From: Loktanella sp. PT4BL
GTDB lineage: Bacteria; Pseudomonadota; Alphaproteobacteria; Rhodobacterales; Rhodobacteraceae
Assembly: GCF_003201935.1 (NCBI RefSeq)
Contig: NZ_QJJL01000002.1
Span: 372,001 to 436,000, forward strand
Direction: 5' to 3'
Length of the DNA stretch: 64,000 nucleotides
The position numbers were made by a program, and so were the translations under genes. The notes beneath the pieces are model-generated. The model worked only from the letters and a program-made list of their open reading frames with translations, searched no databases and was not told the DNA's origin. Positions within the stretch are counted from its first letter, which is position 1; every line of letters starts with the position of its first letter. Shown in pieces: positions 8,243-22,625 of this stretch.

Positions 8243-9460
8243 TTATAGCACCTGATCTAGCGCCCCCATCAGCGCGTCAACCTCATCTTTGGTGGTGTAA
8301 TGTACGAAACTGACGCGCAACACGCCTTTCGCAGGGTCCACACCGACTGCGGACAACGGACGCTGCGCGTAGAAATCACCGCCACCGGCCATAATCCCAT
8401 GCGGCGCTAGTTTCGCTGCTGTCTCTTCAGCATCCGCTTCGAGTGACAGCGCAACGGTGGGTGCGCGGCGCAGAGCGTCCGCAGGACCGATAAGCCGTAC
8501 CGAGTTTTTCGCCGAGACGTAATCCAGCAAGGGCTGCAACAGGGCCACCTCTTGCGCGCGCATCAGATCATGGGATTTGCGCGCAGCCGCAGCCCCAGTG
8601 CCGCCGCCATGATGCACGGACAAGGCCTCGAAATAATCGGCCATCCCCGCACTGGCTGCGACCTGCGCATGATCAGGACCCGCAGGTGTAAACCGCTTGT
8701 AAAGGCTATCACCGTTAAAATGGTGTCCCTGATTGGGCAGCTCCATGCCCCAGTCCTCACGGATCACCATGATGCCTTGATGGGGCCCGTAGGTTTTATA
8801 TGCACTGAACAGATAGACATCGCATCCCAGCGCGCCCACATCCGCGAAACCATGCGGCGCATAGGATACGCCATCCACACAGGTCCGCGCGCCCGCAGAT
8901 TTCGCCAAGGCGCAGATGCCGGCCACATCATTGATCGCACCCACAACATTCGAGCAATGCGGGAACACCACAAGCGCCACATCCTGCTCCAAGAGCTTGG
9001 CAAGGTCCTCCGGGTGCAACTCGCCCGTCTCGGGATCAATCTGCCACTCAAGGATATTGATGCCATCCTCAGCCAACCGCCGCCACGGGCCGCTATTGGC
9101 CTCGTGGTCCTGATTGGTCACGACAATGCTCTGGCCCGGCTTGATCCATTTGCGCACCGCTTGTGCCAGCACATAGGTATTCTGCGTGGTCGAGGGCCCA
9201 AAGGACACTTCATGCGTGGCAACCCCCAGCATTTCCGCCAAGCGCCTGCGCGCTTCGTCCATCTCTTCGCCACCCAGGCGCGACGCCGCATAGGGCGCAT
9301 AGGGCTGCACTTTGCGTTCGGTGTAGAAGCGGTACAGGCGGTCTATGACCTGACGGCAGGTATAGGACCCGCCAGCGTTTTCAAAAAAGGCCTGCCCCTG
9401 CAATGAAGGCTGGTCAAAGGCGGGGAATTGGGCGCGCACCCATGCGATATCTAGTGTCAT
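8243..9460 (-). CDS. cysteine-desulfurase-like PLP enzyme (class V aminotransferase fold, VC1184-type)
   Basis: A PLP-dependent enzyme of fold type I. The 405-residue product has N-terminal FFENAGGSY, a His in the cofactor pocket (NQDHEANSGPWR) and the Schiff-base lysine in SAYKTYGPHQG. The order of motifs fits the cysteine-desulfurase-like VC1184 subfamily rather than IscS/SufS, because the characteristic catalytic-Cys loop is not evident. The substrate is unknown. Start is uncertain: the ATGs at 9460 and 9466 both lack a clear ribosome site, and an upstream extension to 9499 would run into the terminator of the BCCT gene. The photolyase gene begins 30 bases after its stop. Confidence 0.8.
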   Translation of the reverse strand: MTLDIAWVRAQFPAFDQPSLQGQAFFENAGGSYTCRQVIDRLYRFYTERKVQPYAPYAASRLGGEEMDEARRRLAEMLGVATHEVSFGPSTTQNTYVLAQAVRKWIKPGQSIVVTNQDHEANSGPWRRLAEDGINILEWQIDPETGELHPEDLAKLLEQDVALVVFPHCSNVVGAINDVAGICALAKSAGARTCVDGVSYAPHGFADVGALGCDVYLFSAYKTYGPHQGIMVIREDWGMELPNQGHHFNGDSLYKRFTPAGPDHAQVAASAGMADYFEALSVHHGGGTGAAAARKSHDLMRAQEVALLQPLLDYVSAKNSVRLIGPADALRRAPTVALSLEADAEETAAKLAPHGIMAGGGDFYAQRPLSAVGVDPAKGVLRVSFVHYTTKDEVDALMGALDQVL

Positions 9461-9475
9461 GCGCATATGGATACG

Positions 9476-9506
9476 AAAAAGGCCCCGATGCGCAAGCACC
9501 GGGACC
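9476..9506 (-). terminator. rho-independent terminator of the BCCT transporter gene
   Basis: On the minus strand a 10-base-pair stem (9506-9497 with 9490-9481, two wobble pairs) encloses a 6-base loop and is followed by TTTTT (9480-9476). It lies 24 bases after the BCCT stop codon. Confidence 0.85.
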
Positions 9507-9529: not shown

Positions 9530-11185
9530 TCAGGCCCTCAGTTCGCTTTGCAAGCCACGGAAGATGGCAAAACACATCAAAAGAAGGACAATTGTAAACG
9601 GCAGTCCGGTTGAAATCACCATCGCCTGCAGCGACCCGAGGCCACCCCCGATCAACAGCGCAATCGCCACCAGACCCTCAAAGGTACACCAGAACACACG
9701 CTGCGGCACAGGCGCGTCGATCTTGCCACCGGCCGTGATCGTATCAATCACAAGGCTGCCGCTGTCAGAGGACGTCACAAAGAACACAATGACCAGTACA
9801 ATCCCAAGGGTCGATGTAATCGATGCCAACGGCAGGCTCTCCAGCATCGCAAAGAGCGACAGTTCCGGACTATAGCTGTCAATCACATTGGCCTTTACCG
9901 CGCTGACATCGACATTAGCGATCATATCGTTGATCGCCGTGCCACCAAAGACAGTCATCCAGAAGATGCACACCAGTGACGGGATGATCAAAACGCAGGT
10001 CAGGAACTCACGCACGGTGCGTCCGCGGGATACACGCGCGATGAACATGCCGACAAATGGTGACCAACTGATCCACCACGCCCAGTAGAACGCCGTCCAG
10101 CCCTCACGATAACCGTCATCAGACCGCCCGATCGGATTGGAGAGCGGCAGGATTTCCTGACCGTAGGCCATTAGCGTCGCAAAGAAGTCGGTAAAGATAC
10201 CAACCGCACCGGCGGTGAACAGCACAAAGAGCAATAGCCCGATGGCCAGCACCATATTGATCTCGGACAGGACTTTCACCCCGCCATCAAGACCACGGAT
10301 CACGGAAATCAACGCCAGTAGCGTGATCAAAACGATCAGGACAACCTGCGCCGTGACGCTGCTGGGAATGCCATAAACGAACTCAAGACCGGCATTCGCC
10401 TGCTGCGCACCCAAGCCAAGCGATGTCGCAAGACCAAAGAGCGTGGCAAAAACGGCAACGATGTCGATCACATGGCCCCACCAGCCCCAGACACGCTCGC
10501 CAAGGATCGGATAGAAGGCCGAACGGATCGAAAGCGGCAGGCCCTTGTTATAGCTGAATAGCGCAAGTGCGAGGGCCACAACCGCGTAAATCGCCCAAGG
10601 ATGCAATGCCCAGTGATAGGACGTGGCCGCCAGCGCCATGCGCTTGGCTTCGTCCACATTGGCGGCAATCAGCGTGCCGTCTTCTGCAAATGGCCGCACC
10701 GCGCCCAAAGGTTCGTCGCCCCAGGGCGTACCAAAATAATAGGCAGGCTCAAGTACACCAAAGAACATCAGGCCAATGCCCATGCCGGCCGCAAAAAGCA
10801 TCGCAAACCAACCCAGATAGCCGTAGTCGGGCGTGGCGTCTGCACCGCCCAAACGGACCGATCCGTAAGGCGACACGATCAGCAGCAAACAGAAGATCAC
10901 AAAGATATTCGCCGCCGTCAGGAAAAACCCGTCAAACGTCGATGTCAAAGCGGGCCGCAGCCAGCCAAAGAACTCTGCGGCCTGGTTCGGGGCAATCAGC
11001 GCGTAAAGCACAAAGATCACCACCGAGAGCCCCGAAATCAGAAAGACGGGGTTGTGAATATCAAGCCCGAATGGCCCGATCTGCGTTTCAATATTGTCCT
11101 GACCGATCGTGTAATCGGTCTCAATCATATCCGAGGCGCCTTCCGGTAACGGAATGCCCATATCGGTTTCGTCTTGTGTGGCCAT
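9530..11185 (-). CDS. BCCT-family transporter (betaine/choline/carnitine type; DMSP candidate)
   Basis: This is an inner-membrane secondary transporter for quaternary-ammonium or sulfonium compounds. The 551-residue product has about twelve hydrophobic segments. It carries the GMGIGLMFFG segment of the sodium- or proton-coupling helix and the family Trp-box, AFYWAWWISWSPFVGMFIAR. A ribosome site, AAGGAAG, lies 8 bases before the ATG. It follows a UspA gene by 48 bases on the same strand and ends in a strong terminator. The substrate cannot be read from sequence. Its position about 2 kb from dmdA-acuI makes DMSP or glycine betaine the leading guesses, as BCCT carriers of the DddT type are known in DMSP clusters. 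Confidence 0.92.
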   Translation of the reverse strand: MATQDETDMGIPLPEGASDMIETDYTIGQDNIETQIGPFGLDIHNPVFLISGLSVVIFVLYALIAPNQAAEFFGWLRPALTSTFDGFFLTAANIFVIFCLLLIVSPYGSVRLGGADATPDYGYLGWFAMLFAAGMGIGLMFFGVLEPAYYFGTPWGDEPLGAVRPFAEDGTLIAANVDEAKRMALAATSYHWALHPWAIYAVVALALALFSYNKGLPLSIRSAFYPILGERVWGWWGHVIDIVAVFATLFGLATSLGLGAQQANAGLEFVYGIPSSVTAQVVLIVLITLLALISVIRGLDGGVKVLSEINMVLAIGLLLFVLFTAGAVGIFTDFFATLMAYGQEILPLSNPIGRSDDGYREGWTAFYWAWWISWSPFVGMFIARVSRGRTVREFLTCVLIIPSLVCIFWMTVFGGTAINDMIANVDVSAVKANVIDSYSPELSLFAMLESLPLASITSTLGIVLVIVFFVTSSDSGSLVIDTITAGGKIDAPVPQRVFWCTFEGLVAIALLIGGGLGSLQAMVISTGLPFTIVLLLMCFAIFRGLQSELRA

Positions 11186-11233
11186 AACTTGGCTTCCTTC
11201 TTATTGTTCGGTCTGATTGTTGCGGGCGCCGGC

Positions 11234-11656
11234 CTAGGCAGGCGCGCGGACAAGGCAAACAGATGCCTTGGTGCGGCGGGCCAGATTGCCGCCGTTCGAA
11301 GCCCAGATGCGGTCGCCGATGTGCGGCACATGCGTCGCCATCACAACCAGATCGGCATCCATTTCATCGACAGCCTTCACCAGATCGTCGTCCAGCGTGG
11401 CGGTCGGGTCATGGGACAGGATCATGTGGGTCGTGACATCCTGGCCATGCGCCTGCGCCTCTTTCAGCGCAAAAGCCGCGAGCTTCTCTTTGTATTCCTC
11501 TGGGGAATGCGCAACCGACGACGGCGTTGGTGTTGTCGCCCCCAGATAACAGACGGTTGCACCGTAAAGCTTCGCCAGATCAGCCGCCATGGTGATCGCG
11601 CCTTCCATCCGGTCCGCATGTGCCAAATCAATCGGCACAACGATTTTTCTATACAT
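11234..11656 (-). CDS. UspA-family universal stress protein
   Basis: This is a 140-residue single-domain Usp. It opens MYRKIVVPIDLAH, the usual first strand and Asp. The C-terminal part has the GNLARRTKASVCLVR stretch, but the classical ATP loop GX2GX9GS/T appears degraded here. I chose the ATG at 11656, which is preceded by AAGGAGGGG; an open frame extends to 11686. Usp proteins are known partners of osmolyte transporters (TeaD with the ectoine TRAP carrier), and this one is the first gene of a two-gene unit with the BCCT carrier. A regulatory role on uptake is inference. Confidence 0.88.
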   Translation of the reverse strand: MYRKIVVPIDLAHADRMEGAITMAADLAKLYGATVCYLGATTPTPSSVAHSPEEYKEKLAAFALKEAQAHGQDVTTHMILSHDPTATLDDDLVKAVDEMDADLVVMATHVPHIGDRIWASNGGNLARRTKASVCLVRAPA

Positions 11657-11865
11657 CGTCCCCTCCTTTTCCGGGCGTTGACACACGCACCATCACGCAG
11701 GCAAACGGCCCGAATATTCATCTTCAAAGACAGGGTTTTGGCCCCCGTTCTTACCCCATGCCTAACAAGCCGCCTGCCCAAGAAACAACCGGATGACCGC
11801 AAATTCAGCCCAATTTGGCCACCATATCTTGCCAAAACATGCTTCAAGCCCCTGCCATGAAACAC

Positions 11866-11895
11866 AAAAAAGCCGCCGAAGTTTTTTTCGGCGGC
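11866..11895 (-). terminator. rho-independent terminator after acuI
   Basis: On the minus strand a perfect 9-base-pair stem (11895-11887 with 11880-11872, GCCGCCGAA arm) with a 6-base loop is followed by TTTTTT. It lies 31 bases after the acuI stop and closes the DUF2182-to-acuI run. The 209 bases between it and the uspA start hold no gene and should contain the uspA promoter. Confidence 0.9.
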
Positions 11896-11925
11896 CTTGC
11901 AGATTTCTGGTTTTTCAGGGCGGGA

Positions 11926-12909
11926 TCAGGCGTTCACATCAACCACAACACGGCCTTTGACCTGCCCTTGCAAGATGCCCGCCCCAAGTGCTGGCAGGTC
12001 TGACAGCGTCGCGGGCTGGATCATCGCCTCGAGTTTATCCATCGGCAAATCCTTGGCAATGCGCGCCCAGGCGCGGACGCGGTTCTCATAGGGTTGCATC
12101 ACGCTGTCGATCCCCAAAAGGTTCACACCGCGCAGCAGGAACGGGATGACAGATGCAGGCAACCCGGCCCCGCCCGCCAGACCCACAGCAGAGACAGAGG
12201 CACCATATTTCATCTGCCCCAAGACACGCGCCAGCATCTCGCCACCCACCGCGTCAACACAACCGCCCCATGTCTCGGCTTCGAGCGGGCGACGGGTGAT
12301 TGCATTGATCTCTTCGCGGGGCACGATCTGTGTCGCACCAAGGGATTTGAGATAATCGGCCGTCTCGGGCCGTCCTGTTACCGCCGCCACCTCATGCCCC
12401 AGATTGGCCAGGATCGCTGTCGCAACGGACCCAACACCACCTGCCGCACCTGTGACGAGGACCGGACCATCCTTGATCCCGTGATCCTCAAGCGCCATCA
12501 CCGCCAGCATCGCCGTAAAGCCCGCTGTGCCCACCGCCATCGCCTGACGTGTATCAAGACCTTCTGGCAGTGGTACCAGCCAATCGGCTTTCACCCGCGC
12601 CTTTTGGGAATACCCGCCCCAATAGGCCTCGCCCACGCGCCATCCGGTCAGCACAACCTTGTCTCCGGGCTGATAGCGCGGATCATCCGACGCCTCGACT
12701 GTGCCCGCCATATCAATGCCCGGCACATGAGGGTAATTGCGTACCAACCCACCGCCCGGCCCGATGCAAAGCCCGTCCTTGTAGTTCACGGTCGAATATT
12801 CCACTGCAACCGTCACATCACCTTCGGGCAACTGCTCCAGCGACAGCTCTTGCACAGATGCGCTGGTTTTTCCCTCTGCATCTTTCTCGACCATCAAAGC
12901 CTTAAACAT
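11926..12909 (-). CDS. acuI: acrylyl-CoA reductase AcuI (YhdH/YhfP-type MDR oxidoreductase)
   Basis: AcuI reduces acryloyl-CoA to propionyl-CoA with NADPH, removing a toxic product of DMSP breakdown. The 327-residue product is a zinc-free medium-chain reductase: an N-terminal catalytic domain (STVNYKDGLCIGPGGG, PHVPGIDMAGTV) and a Rossmann domain with VLVTGAAGGVGSVA. The ATG at 12909 follows AAAGGAA by 8 bases and gives the typical MFKAL opening; the longer frame to 12960 is not supported. It sits directly downstream of dmdA, the arrangement known from Ruegeria pomeroyi. The 102-base spacer holds competing hairpins and a dispersed repeat. A terminator follows. Confidence 0.9.
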   Translation of the reverse strand: MFKALMVEKDAEGKTSASVQELSLEQLPEGDVTVAVEYSTVNYKDGLCIGPGGGLVRNYPHVPGIDMAGTVEASDDPRYQPGDKVVLTGWRVGEAYWGGYSQKARVKADWLVPLPEGLDTRQAMAVGTAGFTAMLAVMALEDHGIKDGPVLVTGAAGGVGSVATAILANLGHEVAAVTGRPETADYLKSLGATQIVPREEINAITRRPLEAETWGGCVDAVGGEMLARVLGQMKYGASVSAVGLAGGAGLPASVIPFLLRGVNLLGIDSVMQPYENRVRAWARIAKDLPMDKLEAMIQPATLSDLPALGAGILQGQVKGRVVVDVNA

Positions 12910-12927
12910 CGTCATTCCTTTCATTTC

Positions 12928-13008
12928 GGGGCCTCTCATTTCGGTGGCTGAGGCCCCCACTTTCCATGTCTCTTCAAACTTCCGCCGGAGGCTCCGACGC
13001 AGCCACCG
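12928..13008 (-). promoter_or_regulatory. Competing inverted repeats in the dmdA-acuI spacer
   Basis: Two inverted repeats overlap. One pairs GGGGCCTC at 12928-12935 with GAGGCCCC at 12950-12957. The other pairs CGGTGGCTG at 12942-12950 with CAGCCACCG at 13000-13008. Both cannot form at once because they compete for base 12950, and the arms are interleaved. They lie between the dmdA stop and the acuI ribosome site. An attenuator-like or mRNA-stability role is inference. Confidence 0.4.
12959..12992 (+). repeat. Dispersed 34-base repeat, copy 1
   Basis: This 34-base stretch matches the one at 55446-55479 at 31 positions. Shared blocks are ACTTTCCATGTC and TCAAACTTCCGCCGGAGGC. Both copies are intergenic, here inside the outer hairpin of the dmdA-acuI spacer. 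It looks like a Rhodobacterales REP-like element. Confidence 0.6.
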
Positions 13009-13011
13009 GAC

Positions 13012-14112
13012 CTAGATCCAGAATTTCTCGTGCACGGTGGCCACGCGCGGGCCATCCTGCGTCTGCACCTCAAGCTGGGTGCCTTCGTCCCAATGGGTCA
13101 TCCGGACCATGCCAATGGCGACGTTGGTCCCGTAATCCGGCGATGCCGCAGCGGACGTGATCTGGCCCACCTTCTTGCCCTTGGCGATCAATGGCCAAAC
13201 CTGATTGCATACCGGAATATCACCCTCAATCGCGATTGCGCGGATCTGCTGCGTGGGCCCCTCTTTGGCCACCCGCAAAAGCGCATCGCGCCCCACGCAG
13301 CCAATCGCGGTCTGTGTCGAACAGAACCGGCCAAGCCCGCATTCATGCGGCGTGTTCTCGCGGGTCATATCATTGCCATAGGACAAAAGCCCACCTTCGA
13401 TACGCTCGATCAGATTGGGGCAACCTGCGTGTACATCAAGGTCCTTACCCGCCTCGAAAAGTGCATTCCACAACGGCATCCCGTTCTTTGTACCGTCAAC
13501 GTAAATCTCGAACCCGCCCTGCTTGGAATAGCCCGAGCGTGCTACCGCCATGCTGACCCCGTTAAAATCAAACCAGCCAAAGCGGAAAAACTTGATCGCG
13601 CGCACGGCGTCCCCGAAGACCCGCGCCATCAGATCATCGGCCAGCGGGCCCTGCACCGCCAGAGGCGAAATATCAGGCTCATCCACCAAAACATCCAGAC
13701 GATAGCCATAGGCCAGGGCCTTGACCCAAAACAGCAGATCACTATCCGCAATCGAAATCCACCAGCGGTCCTCGGTCAGTTTCAGTGCGACCGGATCATT
13801 GAGCATCCCGCCGGTTTCATCCACGATCGGCACATAGAAACACTGCCCCGGCAACATGCCGCGCAAATCGCGTGGCGTCAGCATCTGCATCAGGCGTGCG
13901 GCATCCGGGCCGCGCAATTCCACCTGCCGCTCACAGGCCACATCCCATACCTGCACGGCAGCCTTCAGGTGGTGATAATCCTCCACCACGCTGCGAAACA
14001 CCGTGGGCAGCAGCATATGGTTATAGACGGTATATCCCTTGACCCCGGCCGCTTCGACGCCATCGCTAAAGGGGGTGCGCCGAACACGGCGCGAAGGTGC
14101 AATCACAGCCAT
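13012..14112 (-). CDS. dmdA: Dimethylsulfoniopropionate demethylase DmdA
   Basis: DmdA transfers a methyl group from DMSP to tetrahydrofolate, giving methylmercaptopropionate and 5-methyl-THF. The 366-residue product has the GcvT fold. It opens SRRVRRTPFSDGVEAAGVKG followed by YTVYNHMLLPTVF, a block I recognise from roseobacter DmdA and not from glycine-cleavage T proteins. ARSGYSKQGGFEIYVDG and the YGNDMTRENTPHECGLG segment also agree. The ATG at 14112 shares its A with the DinB stop (TGATG) and follows GAGG by about 9 bases. acuI follows on the same strand. A DmdA-like paralogue with another methyl donor is the main alternative. Confidence 0.87.
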   Translation of the reverse strand: MAVIAPSRRVRRTPFSDGVEAAGVKGYTVYNHMLLPTVFRSVVEDYHHLKAAVQVWDVACERQVELRGPDAARLMQMLTPRDLRGMLPGQCFYVPIVDETGGMLNDPVALKLTEDRWWISIADSDLLFWVKALAYGYRLDVLVDEPDISPLAVQGPLADDLMARVFGDAVRAIKFFRFGWFDFNGVSMAVARSGYSKQGGFEIYVDGTKNGMPLWNALFEAGKDLDVHAGCPNLIERIEGGLLSYGNDMTRENTPHECGLGRFCSTQTAIGCVGRDALLRVAKEGPTQQIRAIAIEGDIPVCNQVWPLIAKGKKVGQITSAAASPDYGTNVAIGMVRMTHWDEGTQLEVQTQDGPRVATVHEKFWI

Positions 14113-14618
14113 CAAATATCCTCAGGCATAAAGGGAAGATCGGTGTCGGGCAGTTTGTGCCCTGCCGCGGTCATCATCGCATGGACCTGCCCGCGATGAT
14201 GGGTTTGATGGTTGAACATTTGCATGACACACAGCGCCATCGGCTTGGACATCTGTCTGCCCAAAGCGCCAGAGTACCAGTCCAGATTGCCAACCAAATC
14301 AATTGCTTGGACGCTTTGCGCCCAAAGCGCAATCCGCGCATCCATCCGGAACCGATCAGCAGCCCAGACAGCGGGCGTCACCGCCATATCCACGCTCTCC
14401 TTAAGCGTCACATCCGTGCCGGTCCCGCCGTCAAAACGACTGATCCACAAGGTATCGCCCCACAGCAGATGATTCAGCGTGCCCATGATCGAGCCAAAGA
14501 ACGCCCCGCGATCCTTGCGCAACTCGGCCTTGTCCATCGTCAAGACAATCTCGCGCAAAGCAGAATTCTGCCACGCATTATAGCGCGCCATCGTCCGGCA
14601 ATACTCTGGCGTGATCAA
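14112..14618 (-). CDS. DinB-family four-helix-bundle protein
   Basis: The DinB/YfiT superfamily includes metal-dependent thiol-transferases and damage-inducible proteins of unknown role. The 168-residue product has the three expected metal-ligand histidines: one in LNHLLWGD (about residue 49) and two in MFNHQTHHRGQ (about residues 136-140). The start is read as TTG at 14618, overlapping the DUF1326 stop as TTGA, with AAAGG about 9 bases upstream. The protein then begins MITPEYCRTMARYN, typical of the family. It overlaps dmdA by one base, so the three genes are tightly coupled. Members act with bacillithiol, mycothiol or glutathione, so a thiol-linked role next to DMSP demethylation (which leads to methanethiol) is possible but unproven. 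Confidence 0.85.
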   Translation of the reverse strand: MITPEYCRTMARYNAWQNSALREIVLTMDKAELRKDRGAFFGSIMGTLNHLLWGDTLWISRFDGGTGTDVTLKESVDMAVTPAVWAADRFRMDARIALWAQSVQAIDLVGNLDWYSGALGRQMSKPMALCVMQMFNHQTHHRGQVHAMMTAAGHKLPDTDLPFMPEDI

Positions 14619-15325
14619 GGCTTGGGACCTTTCCAGTCAATCGGGCAAATCTCGGCGGATTTGCCGCCAAAATCCCAGACACGGCCATAGTCGCGGACCT
14701 TGGACTTCGTGCCTGTAGCGGCGATGATATCCGGCCCCATCCAGTATTTGGAATTGCTGACCATAACCGGATGATCGGGGGATTTGCCCGCCATCATTTC
14801 GATCTCGCCCTGAATTTTGCGGCCGATATAGATGCCACGCTTGGTGCCTTCACGGACGATCTCGACCTTTTCACGCTCGGCGCCGATGATTTCGGAGACA
14901 AGCATGGTGAACAGACCCGTGGTGCCCCCGGCCTGCCCGCTGAATATCTTCAGAATGCCATTGTAGGCTTTCTGTGTTGACCGCTCATCCACATAGGCGG
15001 CCACTTTCCAGTTGCCTTCGGCCATCCGGCCCGGAATATCGACGAGCAGACCGACGTTCAGACCGGACAGGTCCTCGCCCTCGAAGTGCCCCTCATCAAT
15101 GGCAATGGCCATCCACGCATGGCAATGTCCCTCGGTCGGCGGGTGCGCACCAAGGCTGACGACGCAGGGACAAAAGACCGTGCATGAGCAGTTGAGGAAC
15201 AACTCGCCCTTGATCGCCCATTCAGTGGGTTTCATCTTGCGGCGCAGCGGATTGCTGTCCATCCGTTGATCGATACGCTGCGAAATCGGCAGCCGATCTG
15301 CTGGGGCCCGTGTCTTGTCAGCCAT
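14615..15325 (-). CDS. DUF1326 domain protein with a Cys cluster
   Basis: A 236-residue protein of unknown function. The DUF1326 domain begins near residue 31 and carries LNCSCTVFCPCVVS, a CxCx3CxC cluster, followed by a further Cys-His pair in GHCHAW, which suggests metal or iron-sulfur binding. A 30-residue charged N-terminal extension precedes the domain. The ATG at 15325 is supported by AGGGA about 8 bases upstream. It follows the DUF2182 gene by 14 bases and overlaps the DinB start by 4. DUF1326 and DUF2182 genes are commonly adjacent in proteobacteria; their joint role is unknown. Confidence 0.82.
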   Translation of the reverse strand: MADKTRAPADRLPISQRIDQRMDSNPLRRKMKPTEWAIKGELFLNCSCTVFCPCVVSLGAHPPTEGHCHAWMAIAIDEGHFEGEDLSGLNVGLLVDIPGRMAEGNWKVAAYVDERSTQKAYNGILKIFSGQAGGTTGLFTMLVSEIIGAEREKVEIVREGTKRGIYIGRKIQGEIEMMAGKSPDHPVMVSNSKYWMGPDIIAATGTKSKVRDYGRVWDFGGKSAEICPIDWKGPKP

Positions 15326-15339
15326 CTCTCGTCCCTTCT

Positions 15340-16107
15340 TTAAAGAATTGCCAAGCCAAGGCCGGCAGCAATCAAGACCACGCCGACAGGCTTGATCACA
15401 CGATGCCCGATTTCGGGCAGTTTTTCAAAAACCATGAGCAGCGTTGCCAACCCCATCCAGGCAAGGCTCATCACGCCGCCCACAAATCCGAGCGCCATAT
15501 AGCCCCAGCAACAGACCACACAAAATGCGCCCAGCCCGATCCCCATACGCAAACCACCAGAGAAACCGGTTTTCCAGTGTCCGAGAAAATAGGTCATCGG
15601 GGCATGACACACGCCGTGGCAGACCTCCTTGATGCGGGTAAACTGGAATGCCCCCACGATGACCAGCAAGGCAGCGGAGAACCAGACCGGCGCAATTCCC
15701 AACATATTGATGATGCCGCCAAAGAGCAGCGCCAACTGAAGTGCGGCGATCACGGCAGCAAAGCCCACCCAGACAATGAAATAGCCCAGTAACAGACCGA
15801 CCCACCCTGCCCGTGTGCCATCGGCACTGACCATCAGTTTTTCATAAGTTGTCAGCGTAGGCACCAAGGTGGGCAGCATCATCGCGGCCATCATTACAGC
15901 CCACATCGCAAAGAGCGGGCCGAAACGTGCCATCGGCATATCCATCGGCATGCGCGGGTCCATCTCGGCCATCGCCTGCCCCATCGGCCCCGGACGGCCC
16001 AGCAGATCAAGGTCCATATCGACCGCCATCATATAGAGCATCAGCCAGGACAACAGGATCGTGCCGAAAAAGAGCAGCCAAAGCGATGATCTGATCAAAT
16101 GCGACAA
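15340..16107 (-). CDS. DUF2182 integral membrane protein (predicted metal-binding)
   Basis: A 255-residue protein with about seven hydrophobic segments. Candidate metal ligands are a Met-rich stretch (MDPRMPMDMPMARF), the CHGVCHAPMTYF loop and a Cys trio in FCVVCCWGYMAL. The reading frame is open well upstream, into the GntR gene on the other strand, so the start must be chosen. I take TTG at 16107 because GGGAG lies about 8 bases before it and the first helix starts immediately after; no ATG lies nearby. It is the first gene of the run ending in acuI and is divergent from the GntR gene, with operator-like repeats between them. Function unknown. Confidence 0.75.
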   Translation of the reverse strand: MSHLIRSSLWLLFFGTILLSWLMLYMMAVDMDLDLLGRPGPMGQAMAEMDPRMPMDMPMARFGPLFAMWAVMMAAMMLPTLVPTLTTYEKLMVSADGTRAGWVGLLLGYFIVWVGFAAVIAALQLALLFGGIINMLGIAPVWFSAALLVIVGAFQFTRIKEVCHGVCHAPMTYFLGHWKTGFSGGLRMGIGLGAFCVVCCWGYMALGFVGGVMSLAWMGLATLLMVFEKLPEIGHRVIKPVGVVLIAAGLGLAIL

Positions 16108-16154
16108 GCGGCTCTCCCGAAGACCAGTTTGCGACTCAAGACTTGCACAAAGAT

Positions 16155-16180
16155 ATGTCAGACGTTTAATTGTCTGACAA
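16155..16180. promoter_or_regulatory. Two operator-like sites between DUF2182 and gntR
   Basis: TTGTCTGACAA at 16170-16180 is a perfect 5+1+5 palindrome of the FadR-subfamily GntR type and touches the gntR start codon. ATGTCAGACGT at 16155-16165 repeats the TGTC-N-GAC core. Together they form an inverted repeat with arms TGTCAGAC (16156-16163) and GTCTGACA (16172-16179). The location suits autoregulation and control of the divergent run. The binding protein is inferred. Confidence 0.65.
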
Positions 16181-16915
16181 ATGAAAATTGATCCGCACAA
16201 CCCCGCAGATCTCTCTGCCCAGATCGCCAAGGCTATCCGCGACGCGATCATCTCTGGCGCTTTGCCGGTGGACGAGCGTCTGCCGTCAGAGGCGGAGATG
16301 GCCGAACAGTTCGATGTATCCCGACCCACCGTGCGCGAGGCGCTGAAACGGCTGGCCGCACAATCGCTGATCCGCACGCAGCGCGGGGCAACCGGCGGGG
16401 CCTTTGTGAACCGGTTGCGGTTTGAAGACGCCTACGGGCAACAGATTACCACATCAACATTGCTGCTTTCGATGAATGACGTCAGCTTTGCGACTGCCTG
16501 CGAGGCGCGCTATGCGCTGGAGCGCGCCTGCGCACCGCTTTCGGCATCACGGCGCAGCGCCGACCACCTTGCGACCATGCGGGCGGAAGCCCACCGCCAG
16601 TTGCAGCCCGGTTTGACGGATGAGGCCTTTTGCGCCTCGGATGTCGCGTTTCATCGCGCCCTCGTTGATGCGGCGGGCAATCCTGTTTTGTCCTACCAGC
16701 TGGCCGGCGCCGTCGAGGCGATGCAGCCGTTGATGAATATGATCACCTTCAGCGCGCGGTCACGGGAAAAGATCGTCGCACTGCATACGTCCATCGCCGA
16801 TGCGATCGAAGCGCAGGACGCGCAAGCCGCAGACGCCCATCTGGCGGCATTGGCGACCTATACACAGGAGCTGGCACAGAATGTGATTGCCGAAAGGCAG
16901 TCCAAGCGTGGTTAG
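16181..16915 (+). CDS. FadR-subfamily GntR transcriptional regulator
   Basis: A 244-residue DNA-binding repressor type. Residues 10-75 form the GntR winged helix (DERLPSEAEMAEQFDVSRPT followed by VREALKRL). The C-terminal half is an FCD ligand domain with the expected metal-binding His/Asp pattern (CASDVAFHRALVDAAGN and ALHTSIADAIE). The ATG at 16181 immediately follows the palindrome TTGTCTGACAA and has no clear Shine-Dalgarno, so the messenger may be leaderless or very short-leadered. It is divergent from the DUF2182-DUF1326-DinB-dmdA-acuI run. In other roseobacters a GntR regulator adjoins dmdA-acuI, so this is the likely DMSP/acrylate-responsive regulator; the ligand is inferred. Confidence 0.9.
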   Translation: MKIDPHNPADLSAQIAKAIRDAIISGALPVDERLPSEAEMAEQFDVSRPTVREALKRLAAQSLIRTQRGATGGAFVNRLRFEDAYGQQITTSTLLLSMNDVSFATACEARYALERACAPLSASRRSADHLATMRAEAHRQLQPGLTDEAFCASDVAFHRALVDAAGNPVLSYQLAGAVEAMQPLMNMITFSARSREKIVALHTSIADAIEAQDAQAADAHLAALATYTQELAQNVIAERQSKRG

Positions 16916-16918
16916 GGT

Positions 16919-16940
16919 AAGGTGGATCTTGATCCACCTT
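16919..16940. repeat. 22-base near-perfect palindrome after gntR
   Basis: Ten-base arms (AAGGTGGATC and its complement) flank a TT centre directly after the gntR stop codon. There is no adjacent T tract, so it is either a weak terminator or a protein-binding site. Confidence 0.5.
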
Positions 16941-17059
16941 ACTGCCCTGATCACACCGTTTTTTGATCATGCCTTGCACGATCTATGGCTGTCCATCCAA
17001 GACAAACGCAGGTAAGCACGGCTCCAAAATACGAAAGCCCGCCATCACCGGAGGATTTG

Positions 17060-17662
17060 ATGAAAGCCGCGATCTTCGGAACAGTCACACTGGCCGCCGC
17101 TGCCGCACTTGGCGTTTATGCATGGCAGTCACAAAACACACCTGCCCCCTGTGGCGACACTGCTGTCGCAGGCAGCGCCATTGGCGGGCCGTTCGAGCTG
17201 GTGTCCGAAACCGGCGAAACGGTGACGGATGCCGATGTGATCACCAAACCGACACTGGTCTATTTCGGCTACACATTCTGCCCCGATGTTTGCCCGCTGG
17301 ATTCCGCGCGGAATGCACAGGCCGCCTATATCCTGGAAGAGCAAGGGCTTGATCTGGGAACCATCTTTATCTCGGTTGACCCACAGCGCGACACGGTCGA
17401 GGTCGTGCGCGATTTCACTGACAACTTCCACGAAGACATGATCGGACTGACCGGATCACCTGAGCAGGTCAAGGCGGCCAGCCAGGCCTACAAGACCTAC
17501 TACCGCGCGGTTGAGGGTGACCCCGAATACTATCTCGTCGACCACTCGACGCAGACCTACCTGATGTTCCCCGAAACAGGGTTCGCGACCTTCTTCCGGC
17601 GCGACACACCCGCAGAAGCGGTCGCAGAAATCTCGGCCTGTTTCATGGCGCAAAACAGCTAG
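17060..17662 (+). CDS. SCO1/SenC-family copper chaperone or thiol reductase
   Basis: SCO proteins deliver copper to the CuA site of cytochrome c oxidase or act as periplasmic thiol reductases. The 200-residue product starts with an N-terminal membrane anchor (residues 3-22). It has the CxxxC copper motif in GYTFCPDVCPLD and the conserved His near the C-terminus in LVDHSTQTYL. The ATG at 17060 follows GGAGG by 5 bases; a longer frame from 16985 lacks support. Its neighbours are gntR upstream and hemN downstream, both on the same strand. The Rhodobacter homologue is PrrC. No oxidase subunit gene is present in the window. Confidence 0.9.
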   Translation: MKAAIFGTVTLAAAAALGVYAWQSQNTPAPCGDTAVAGSAIGGPFELVSETGETVTDADVITKPTLVYFGYTFCPDVCPLDSARNAQAAYILEEQGLDLGTIFISVDPQRDTVEVVRDFTDNFHEDMIGLTGSPEQVKAASQAYKTYYRAVEGDPEYYLVDHSTQTYLMFPETGFATFFRRDTPAEAVAEISACFMAQNS

Positions 17663-22217: not shown

Positions 22218-22265
22218 GCGCCGATCTTACGGTGCAAATCCGGACGGGCGCAATGCATCACCCCC

Positions 22266-22294
22266 TTGCAGGACGGGTGTCTGAGGCCTATGTG
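22266..22294 (+). promoter_or_regulatory. Candidate ssrA promoter
   Basis: A TTGCAG -35-like element (22266-22271) and CTATGT or TATGTG -10-like element (22288-22294) are spaced 16-17 bases apart, directly upstream of the folded tmRNA sequence. Confidence 0.45.
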
Positions 22295-22299
22295 TAGGA

Positions 22300-22625
22300 C
22301 GTCCTTCGGGACTATGGACATAAACGCGCTCGTAATAAGCGGATCGGACCCGGGGGCGGTACCCGGCGTCTCCACCAAAACCTGCTCATTTGGCAGCAAT
22401 GGGGACGAAATAGGATCGACGAACGTCTAAAGGGGTTTTGCTTTGTCCCGGTGAGTTACCACCGTTATCGGTACAATAAAGCTAGTTGCAAATGACAACA
22501 AAGCACCGATGGCACTCGCAGCGTAAGCTGTGCGTAATATCGAAACCTTAAGCCCTATGGTTTTGCGACCATAGGCGGGGTCCGCAGGTACCTGGCAACA
22601 GAAACCTGCACCTTCCCCCCTTTTT
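22300..22625 (+). ncRNA. ssrA: Two-piece (circularly permuted) transfer-messenger RNA
   Basis: tmRNA rescues stalled ribosomes and tags the nascent peptide for proteolysis. The gene is permuted as in alphaproteobacteria. The acceptor piece comes first: a GTCC-TTCG-GGAC hairpin near 22300, then a T-arm-like segment ending GTCTCC-A-CCA at 22377. After a 23-base intervening segment, the coding piece starts at 22401 with GGGGACGAAATAGGATCGAC; its GGGGAC pairs with GTCTCC. The tag frame at 22488-22526 reads ANDNKAPMALAA then TAA. Further hairpins (CCTATGG/CCATAGG and GCAGGT/ACCTGC) and a T run close the gene. Both outer ends are approximate. Confidence 0.93.

Follow-up and report, generated by a model that had tools for sequence, protein, structure and literature searches.

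A PpoB2-DUF1326 gene pair linked to dmdA and acuI in Rhodobacteraceae, possibly for the handling of copper

The dmdA locus of Loktanella sp. PT4BL

The window considered here, a stretch of 64,000 nucleotides from the genome of Loktanella sp. PT4BL, carries five genes that follow one another on the minus strand with operon spacing. They code for a PpoB2-family membrane protein, a DUF1326 protein, a DinB protein, the DMSP demethylase DmdA and an AcuI-like enzyme, in that order. A preliminary description had set all five on one strand, with gaps or overlaps of 14, -4, -1 and 102 bases. Pfam and NCBIfam profile matches together with the coordinates bear this out, and the same values are recomputed with ATG starts for dmdA and acuI: a 14 bp gap between the first two genes, an overlap (-4) between the DUF1326 and DinB genes, then -1 at the DinB-dmdA junction with the dmdA ATG at 14112 (-4 with a TTG at 14115), and 102 bp between dmdA and acuI with the acuI ATG at 12909 (51 bp with a GTG at 12960).

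The product of the first gene (15340-16107, with TTG 16107 as the most likely start) matches PF09948 with 191.6 bits for a gathering cut-off of 28.7. This family, which we take to be the former DUF2182, is named by Pfam 'PpoB2, copper chaperone'. The protein is rich in sulfur amino acids, with 24 methionines and 5 cysteines in 255 residues; the cysteines (C163, C167, C196, C199 and C200) are invariant across 61 alignment rows, and methionine residues are also among the invariant positions. Its AF2 model (pLDDT 88.8) is mostly helical, and no fold relative appears among the listed matches (Foldseek best E 1.0; VIA-align best Z 4.5, 255 chains). The second gene (14615-15325, 236 residues) gives a PF07040 match of 170.1 bits (cut-off 25). 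The Cys-rich CxCx3CxC motif singled out early on is a genuine family feature: C46, C48, C52 and C54, with C68 as a fifth, are invariant in 10 diverse members. No signal peptide is visible by eye, and the protein is apparently cytosolic. The sole match in a search for a solved relative was a designed protein (E 0.64), taken as chance, while an AF2 model built from 37 close relatives was unusable (pLDDT 34). Long frames hinted at PpoB2-DUF1326 fusions; no frame has both domains, and a 633-residue frame at locus L337 holds the DUF1326 domain alone.

The third gene (14112-14618, 168 residues) belongs to the DinB family, PF05163 (85.2 bits, cut-off 23), with 3di5 as nearest solved relative (E 8.8e-05). 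It does bear the histidines that had been claimed for it, H50, H137 and H141 each being kept in 90% or more of 99 aligned rows, among which the window is counted twice. Other DinB proteins are known for metal-dependent thiol transferase (S-transferase) activity. The gene is present in 33 of 84 dmdA operons and is thus an optional member, so that its place in a coupled run stands for the window and not as a rule. The fourth gene (13012-14112) codes for a protein with GCV_T and GCV_T_C domains that passes the NCBIfam equivalog NF009133 (675 bits, cut-off 410) and has 3tfh as a solved relative (367 bits); a tetrahydrofolate-dependent DMSP demethylase is predicted. The last product (11926-12909; ADH_N and ADH_zinc_N domains) passes TIGR02823, the acrylyl-CoA reductase subfamily, with 445.1 bits for a cut-off of 297.25, and falls just under the AcuI equivalog NF051456 (419.3 bits for 440), which is why we name it AcuI-like. 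The run ends at a hairpin on the same strand (11869-11898), with a 12-pair stem and a T-rich tail. It had been called a strong terminator: it has the most pairs of all 13 terminator-like sites found in a scan of 10500-17000, but its score alone is weak, since 6.4 such sites were expected there.

A divergent regulator and its candidate site

Facing the run, as had been noticed, is the plus-strand gene of a GntR/FCD transcriptional regulator (16181-16915; PF00392 67.7 bits, PF07729 67.8 bits), and between it and the first operon gene lies a tandem operator-like site, TGTCAGACA-N6-CGTCTGACA (16156-16179). In a genome-wide pattern search this was the sole place with fewer than two mismatches, three further places having two. 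We collected 130 GntR-operon intergenic regions, some of them from near relatives, where a GntR match of at least 200 bits stands no more than 600 bases from an operon gene on the opposite strand. Of these regions, 110 contain a site that fits [TC]GTCNGAC[AG] and 20 have none; after shuffling of their bases (50 rounds) a mean of 1.1 regions, and at most 4, had one. Conserved and nearly unique in its genome, the palindromic tandem site is a candidate for GntR binding. A divergent GntR gene accompanies 52 of the 84 dmdA loci.

Linkage across genomes

The sample comprised 198 genomes of the Rhodobacteraceae, one per genus, the genera being counted as independent and kinship ignored; 84 carry dmdA. 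The coupling survived this gene-order comparison: in 64 of the 84 dmdA genera a DUF1326 gene lies less than 5 kb upstream of dmdA on the same strand, and a PF09948 gene is present at all 64 of these loci. Within the dmdA operon itself, drawn in steps of 400 bp from the best dmdA match per genome, loci clipped at contig ends being kept, both genes are found in 57 of 84 cases. The full five-gene unit also occurs in Yoonia maricola (L195) and Roseobacter sp. CCS2 (L192). In the surveys of shared flanking families, of dmdA-less loci and of DUF1326 neighbours outside the family, the gene picks include antisense frames.

The pair also follows acuI. An acuI gene belongs to the dmdA operon in 54 of 59 cases with DUF1326, and in 7 of the 25 that lack it (Fisher p 1e-8, kinship ignored). 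In the same clade, 8 of 11 loci that lack dmdA have the pair ahead of acuI; the sample has 35 DUF1326-bearing genomes without dmdA, and the loci of 15 were covered. The PpoB2-DUF1326 pair therefore tracks acuI as well as dmdA. Neither the GntR gene nor the site pair was found at 9 distinct dmdA-less loci with a visible upstream side, which means that this regulator does not control the pair there; 4 other dmdA-less loci retain the GntR gene, and the site pair is present at 2 of these 4.

Elsewhere in the class, outside the family, the linked pair occurs in only 1 of 22 dmdA genomes. As 21 lack it, the pair is mostly a family add-on and no general part of demethylation, and dmdA-acuI operons without it (L107 and L150) make it dispensable. 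Of 47 further DUF1326 loci, 40 from outside the family and 7 from inside it, 41 have a PpoB2-family gene on the same strand no more than 600 bp away, which tells us that the two form a unit of their own. The neighbours of DUF1326 outside the family are very varied and share no common function. A search of viral contigs for relatives found none.

What the pair may do

DMSP demethylation sets the share of oceanic DMSP sulfur that goes to methanethiol and biomass rather than to dimethyl sulfide. The reading that we prefer, giving it a probability of about 0.4, is that the PpoB2-family and DUF1326 proteins would form a copper(I)-handling module, recruited in the Rhodobacteraceae into a DMSP/acrylate regulon beside a dedicated GntR/FCD regulator. 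PpoB2 of Marinomonas mediterranea is described as involved in the specific transfer of copper to the tyrosinase PpoB1 (PMC2855505). A copper role would thus be carried over by analogy from one organism and a tyrosinase, an enzyme that is absent from the present operon. In such a module, a Met-rich loop (about residues 30-63) and the membrane cysteines and methionines of the PpoB2-family protein might capture Cu(I), which would be exchanged with the five-Cys site of DUF1326. The need for it, one step further in conjecture, would come from DMSP catabolism upsetting the thiols that buffer cytosolic copper: acrylate or acryloyl-CoA would alkylate thiols, AcuI dealing with the acrylate side; methanethiol would bind Cu(I) where dmdA is present; and the optional three-His DinB protein could act as a metal-dependent thiol transferase on the same electrophile. 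The presence of a copper-chaperone family member in the dmdA operon of many DMSP-degrading ocean bacteria suggests that these bacteria have to manage copper when they deal with DMSP or the toxic compounds formed from it.

A metal- or thiol-handling role had been proposed for the extra proteins from the start, with methanethiol as its reason. The metal part gains from the Pfam naming of PF09948 after a copper chaperone. Methanethiol as the only rationale is weak, because the pair precedes acuI at most dmdA-less loci and acuI goes with the pair, so that demethylation is not the only setting of the unit. The acrylate side receives no help from the lyases of family PF16867, over cut-off in 81 of the 198 genomes: this family, the only one counted, has no association with DUF1326 (p = 0.29 without dmdA, 0.77 with it). 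DddP and DddD are DMSP lyases of other families. More tentatively still, and with rather less confidence than in the module itself, one may picture the pair as an undescribed kind of two-protein Cu(I) relay, a built-in DMSP/acrylate safeguard in most of the dmdA-bearing Rhodobacteraceae genera sampled, through which copper availability or stress would feed into DMSP processing.

It is also conceivable, though unlikely in our opinion, that copper is not what the pair handles here and that it serves another metal, an iron-sulfur centre, or the carriage of sulfur or thiols (for example binding or export of methanethiol or a thioester product). DUF1326 is an uncharacterised family whose cysteine pattern names no particular metal. 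A tie to acyl-CoA chemistry comes from an acyl-CoA ligase of the PRK08162 subfamily (its cut-off exceeded by all 6 ligases scanned), found in 9 of 84 dmdA operons, in 5 of these 9 between DUF1326 and dmdA, and coming after the pair at L322 and L336; the ligase in that intermediate position was considered as DmdB and set aside, with about 300 bits against the 822 needed for NF005426. Set against this, the sole studied member of the PpoB2 family is linked to copper in the account of PMC2855505, and the varied neighbours outside the family fit a general service better than a pathway step.

Less probable again is a role of the pair in maturing one particular copper enzyme of the pathway, comparable to what PpoB2 does for tyrosinase. 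The methanethiol oxidase MtoX would be the obvious candidate; it is reported as a copper enzyme with the gene of an SCO1 copper chaperone beside it (PMC5739008). Taking any PF05694 match as MtoX, some being weak or broken, this family goes with dmdA (49 of the 67 PF05694 genomes among the 198 carry it), and an SCO1/SenC gene lies within the window (16985-17662). Yet the source genome has no PF05694 match; within the 84 dmdA genomes PF05694 is found just as often whether or not the pair is linked to dmdA (37/64 with the link against 12/20 without, p = 1); SCO1 is near the unit at only 9 of 80 named loci; and the operon holds no known copper enzyme. We disfavour maturation of MtoX for these reasons. 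Slightly poorer still is the idea that the linkage is an inherited gene order of little functional meaning, the pair having by chance preceded acuI or dmdA in an ancestor and simply been passed on, for while many loci share flanking families (clusters c7-c12 and c15-c18; tmRNA), some lineages keep dmdA-acuI without the pair and the counts ignore kinship, none of the common flanking families is present at 13 of 59 DUF1326 operons (8 once the 5 clipped by contig ends are removed), the spacing is operon-like, locus L343 of another family has the row PpoB2-DUF1326-dmdA-ligase, and the pair stays with acuI without dmdA, a state for which the starred branches of the DUF1326 tree force at least three changes (a quick, poorly resolved tree, in which 37 of the 82 inner branches are open, the outgroup does not make up one side of a branch and one row, L324, is a fragment).

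If most dmdA genera of the family express the pair together with DmdA and the enzyme that detoxifies acrylate, copper and thiol status become part of how the pathway runs. Were the copper module real, it would offer a testable physiological setting for two families, DUF1326, which is uncharacterised, and PF09948, barely characterised.

Comparison with known systems

Our literature search found no published description of this arrangement, in line with the early remark that such a coupling was not known as described. The dmdA-acuI unit, by contrast, is familiar, and the mention of one in Ruegeria was right: the operon of R. pomeroyi is described as induced by acrylate and DMSP, and in 24 of the 26 dmdA-bearing strains listed there dmdA immediately precedes acuI, the two being probably co-transcribed (PMC3338564). 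The present locus shares this order. As far as that account of Roseobacter operons extends, the DUF2182, DUF1326 and DinB genes go unmentioned, and the promoter region of R. pomeroyi is described as that of dmdA-acuI (PMC3338564), whereas here three genes come before dmdA. Judging by the published operon description, R. pomeroyi, a model strain, seems to lack the pair arrangement, which may be why the arrangement went unnoticed. Another acuI operon linked to DMSP and acrylate is described in the same source (PMC3338564); it has acuI in common with our locus, with a regulator of the TetR family and the gene of a DMSP lyase in place of GntR and the copper-chaperone-like pair.

Two further systems can be compared. 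In M. mediterranea, the PpoB1-PpoB2 operon likewise joins the gene of a membrane protein of the PF09948 type to the gene that it serves (PMC2855505); there the partner is a copper tyrosinase, while here no known copper enzyme belongs to the operon and the PpoB2-family protein has the Cys-rich DUF1326 protein as its constant partner. The mtoX-SCO1/SenC-mauG cluster, as presented in PMC5739008, likewise ties a copper chaperone gene to the catabolism of DMSP sulfur, with a chaperone of another family, at another locus, and around an enzyme whose family, PF05694, is missing from our source genome.

The run and its surroundings

Five genes of the minus strand form the run in the window, and the coordinates, gaps and motifs attributed to it in the preliminary description proved correct on re-examination. 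It opens with a gene for a membrane protein of the PpoB2 family (PF09948; 15340-16107), the start codon of which is most likely the TTG at 16107. Then come genes for a DUF1326 protein (14615-15325) and a DinB-family protein (14112-14618), dmdA for DMSP demethylase (13012-14112) and an acuI-like gene of the acrylyl-CoA reductase family (11926-12909). A terminator-like hairpin closes the run on the same strand (11869-11898). A GntR/FCD gene starts divergently at 16181 on the plus strand, and the tandem site TGTCAGACA-N6-CGTCTGACA (16156-16179) separates it from the PpoB2-family gene. That dmdA adjoins acuI is established for most Roseobacters (PMC3338564, accessible portion). The accessible portions of PMC4334477 and PMC4770636 do not mention the unit, and full-text searches, from which most subscription papers are out of reach, gave no match for DUF1326, DUF2182 or their Pfam numbers.

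Several neighbours deserve a word. Past the terminator, genes for a BCCT transporter and a universal stress protein (9530-11185 and 11234-11653, minus strand) make up a pair that is found again after acuI in several genera, a candidate for DMSP or betaine uptake. Beyond lies a cysteine-desulfurase-like class V aminotransferase gene (8243-9499, minus strand), scoring under the TIGR01976 cut-off; a relative is within the fetched region of 34 of 84 dmdA loci, and at some loci devoid of dmdA. On the plus strand, the GntR gene is followed by a SCO1/SenC gene (16985-17662); of the 80 named loci kept as the best of 572 DUF1326 relatives, 9 have a relative in the stretch. Further along the plus strand is the gene for an alphaproteobacterial tmRNA (22262-22612), which at loci L178, L183 and L127 is no more than a few kb from the PpoB2 unit. 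The same genome encodes a second DmdA-like protein (contig C9, 4956-6032; 375.7 bits vs a DmdA cut-off of 410), and such sub-cut-off copies exist in many other genera.

A pair that accompanies dmdA in the Rhodobacteraceae

The coupling of DUF1326 and its membrane partner to dmdA, proposed from this single stretch, held when gene order round dmdA was compared across Rhodobacteraceae genera: the pair is at dmdA in 64 of 84 cases. In a sample of 198 genomes, one per genus, dmdA passes its cut-off in 84 and DUF1326 is present in 106; they occur together in 71 (odds ratio 12, p = 1.6e-14, kinship being ignored). Of the 84 dmdA genomes, 64 have DUF1326 upstream of dmdA in the same orientation at a distance under 5 kb, 7 have it unlinked, elsewhere in the genome, and 13 gave no DUF1326 match in the genome search. 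The regions round the best dmdA match in the 83 other genomes, together with the window, make a set of 84 loci, some of them clipped at contig ends. A PpoB2-family gene accompanies DUF1326 in the region at all 64 loci that have the latter, and none of the 84 has one without the other. Under a stricter operon rule, allowing steps of at most 400 bp between genes, the dmdA operon comprises both members of the pair at 57 loci, DUF1326 at 59, acuI at 61, DinB at 33 and an acyl-CoA ligase at 9; a divergent GntR gene is within 1.2 kb at 52. A scan of named genomes with a DUF1326 family query found relatives in Yoonia, Loktanella, Octadecabacter, Roseovarius, Sulfitobacter, Tateyamaria, Marivita, Nereida, Shimia and others. 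Of 572 confirmed relatives the best 80 were kept; by gene content, their loci, some on short contigs, include PpoB2 at 80, GntR at 75, acuI at 73, dmdA at 71 and DinB at 63.

The ligase was observed in its own right. A PRK08162-subfamily acyl-CoA ligase gene adjoins dmdA in several genera, and does so beyond the Rhodobacteraceae in other families of the Alphaproteobacteria (near dmdA at L343, L348 and L350): it stands between DUF1326 and dmdA at L109, L112, L121, L134 and L136, after dmdA at L131 and L158, and before dmdA, with no pair, at L137 and L156. Because the ligases scanned score far under the DmdB equivalog cut-off, this enzyme may be a second ligase that acts on the product of DMSP demethylation.

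The pair without dmdA

Within the family, the pair goes with acuI no less than with dmdA. The dmdA operon includes acuI at 54 of 59 loci with DUF1326 vs 7 of 25 without (p = 1e-8, kinship ignored), and GntR is at the operon at 48 of 59 vs 4 of 25. Seventeen further DUF1326 loci (L175-L191) come from dmdA-less genomes (15) or are second copies in dmdA genomes (2). Six carry a distant paralogue; the other 11, every one from a dmdA-less genome, belong to the same DUF1326 clade, and at 8 of these acuI comes after the pair in the same orientation, whether or not DinB is present. The remaining three are one cut by a contig end, one without acuI and one with acuI on the opposite strand. In the DUF1326 tree, the resolution of which is poor, dmdA-less loci are interspersed among dmdA-adjacent ones, and the starred branches force at least three changes. 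It is this retention of acuI with the pair, in dmdA operons and at dmdA-less loci alike, that places the pair as much with acuI as with dmdA.

Outside the Rhodobacteraceae, a class-wide sample of 270 genomes yielded 22 with dmdA above cut-off. DUF1326 is present in 3 of them and linked to dmdA in 1, G686, where 42 bp separate the two matches in the row PpoB2, DUF1326, dmdA, ligase. Of 47 additional DUF1326 loci, 7 of them from within the family and 40 from beyond it, 41 have a gene of the PpoB2 family no more than 600 bp away in the same orientation, DUF1326 coming first at 29 and PpoB2 at 12; the neighbours at these loci are highly diverse. With linkage to dmdA so rare there, and pairing so frequent amid diverse neighbours, the pair is an independent two-gene unit, which the Rhodobacteraceae incorporated into their DMSP operon. 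At a locus from another class (L323; genome G321, contig C51), a DUF1326-PpoB2 pair is about 5 kb from a gene, on the same strand, for a DmdA-like protein that at 335 bits falls short of the cut-off.

The regulator and its site

With up to two mismatches, the tandem pattern has four matches in the genome, only the window site having fewer than two; a reversed control pattern has no match. Of 130 GntR-operon intergenic regions, 110 contain sites of the form [TC]GTCNGAC[AG] (shuffle mean 1.1), 45 of them two or more. Neither GntR nor the site pair was found in the fetched stretch of 11 loci without dmdA, which count as 9: the upstream region of L181 is too short, and L187 and L212, on contigs of equal length, are probably one organism. 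Four dmdA-less loci keep GntR, with the site pair at L223 and L255 and without it at L260 and L191. Upstream of PpoB2 at L182, L185 and L187, where GntR is absent, there is a divergent gene for an extracellular solute-binding protein (SBP_bac_6 in Pfam, as checked at L187), the family of which is located beyond GntR at some dmdA loci. In R. pomeroyi, the dmdA-acuI operon is raised about 10- to 14-fold on DMSP or acrylate (PMC3338564, accessible portion).

Copper and thiols

What might such a pair do? Pfam names PF09948 'PpoB2, copper chaperone'. Of the 255 residues of the protein encoded in the window, 24 are Met and 5 are Cys; across a 61-row family alignment, five Cys and nine Met are invariant. 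Its AF2 model is helical and confident (pLDDT 88.8, pTM 0.82), and structure comparison found no fold relative of it. In DUF1326, five Cys are invariant across 10 diverse members; no solved relative was found, and structure prediction gave no usable model. DinB retains three His. Family, Met/Cys content and constant pairing suggest that the PpoB2-DUF1326 pair handles Cu(I). In the reading that we prefer, acrylate or acryloyl-CoA, and likewise methanethiol where dmdA is present, would upset the thiols that buffer copper, and the pair would hold Cu(I) under control. Two observations count against it: PF16867 DMSP lyase genes have no association with DUF1326, and the pair is absent from some dmdA-acuI operons (L107, L150).

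A client enzyme would be another explanation. Full-text searching finds dmdA co-mentioned with 'copper chaperone' in PMC5739008 and PMC4437653, the former, in its accessible portion, concerning SCO1 and the copper enzyme methanethiol oxidase, MtoX. That MtoX is the client of the pair is disfavoured, since PF05694, the family of MtoX, was not found in the window's own genome and, among dmdA genomes, is equally frequent where the linked pair is present (37 of 64) and where it is lacking (12 of 20).

The preferred reading, of Cu(I) kept under control while thiols are disturbed, may be set beside the PpoB2 of Marinomonas mediterranea. According to the accessible portion of PMC2855505, the one paper that a full-text search for COG5486 found (most subscription papers being out of its reach), this protein has a role in the specific transfer of copper to the tyrosinase PpoB1, and is presented as the first protein of COG5486 to be assigned a role.
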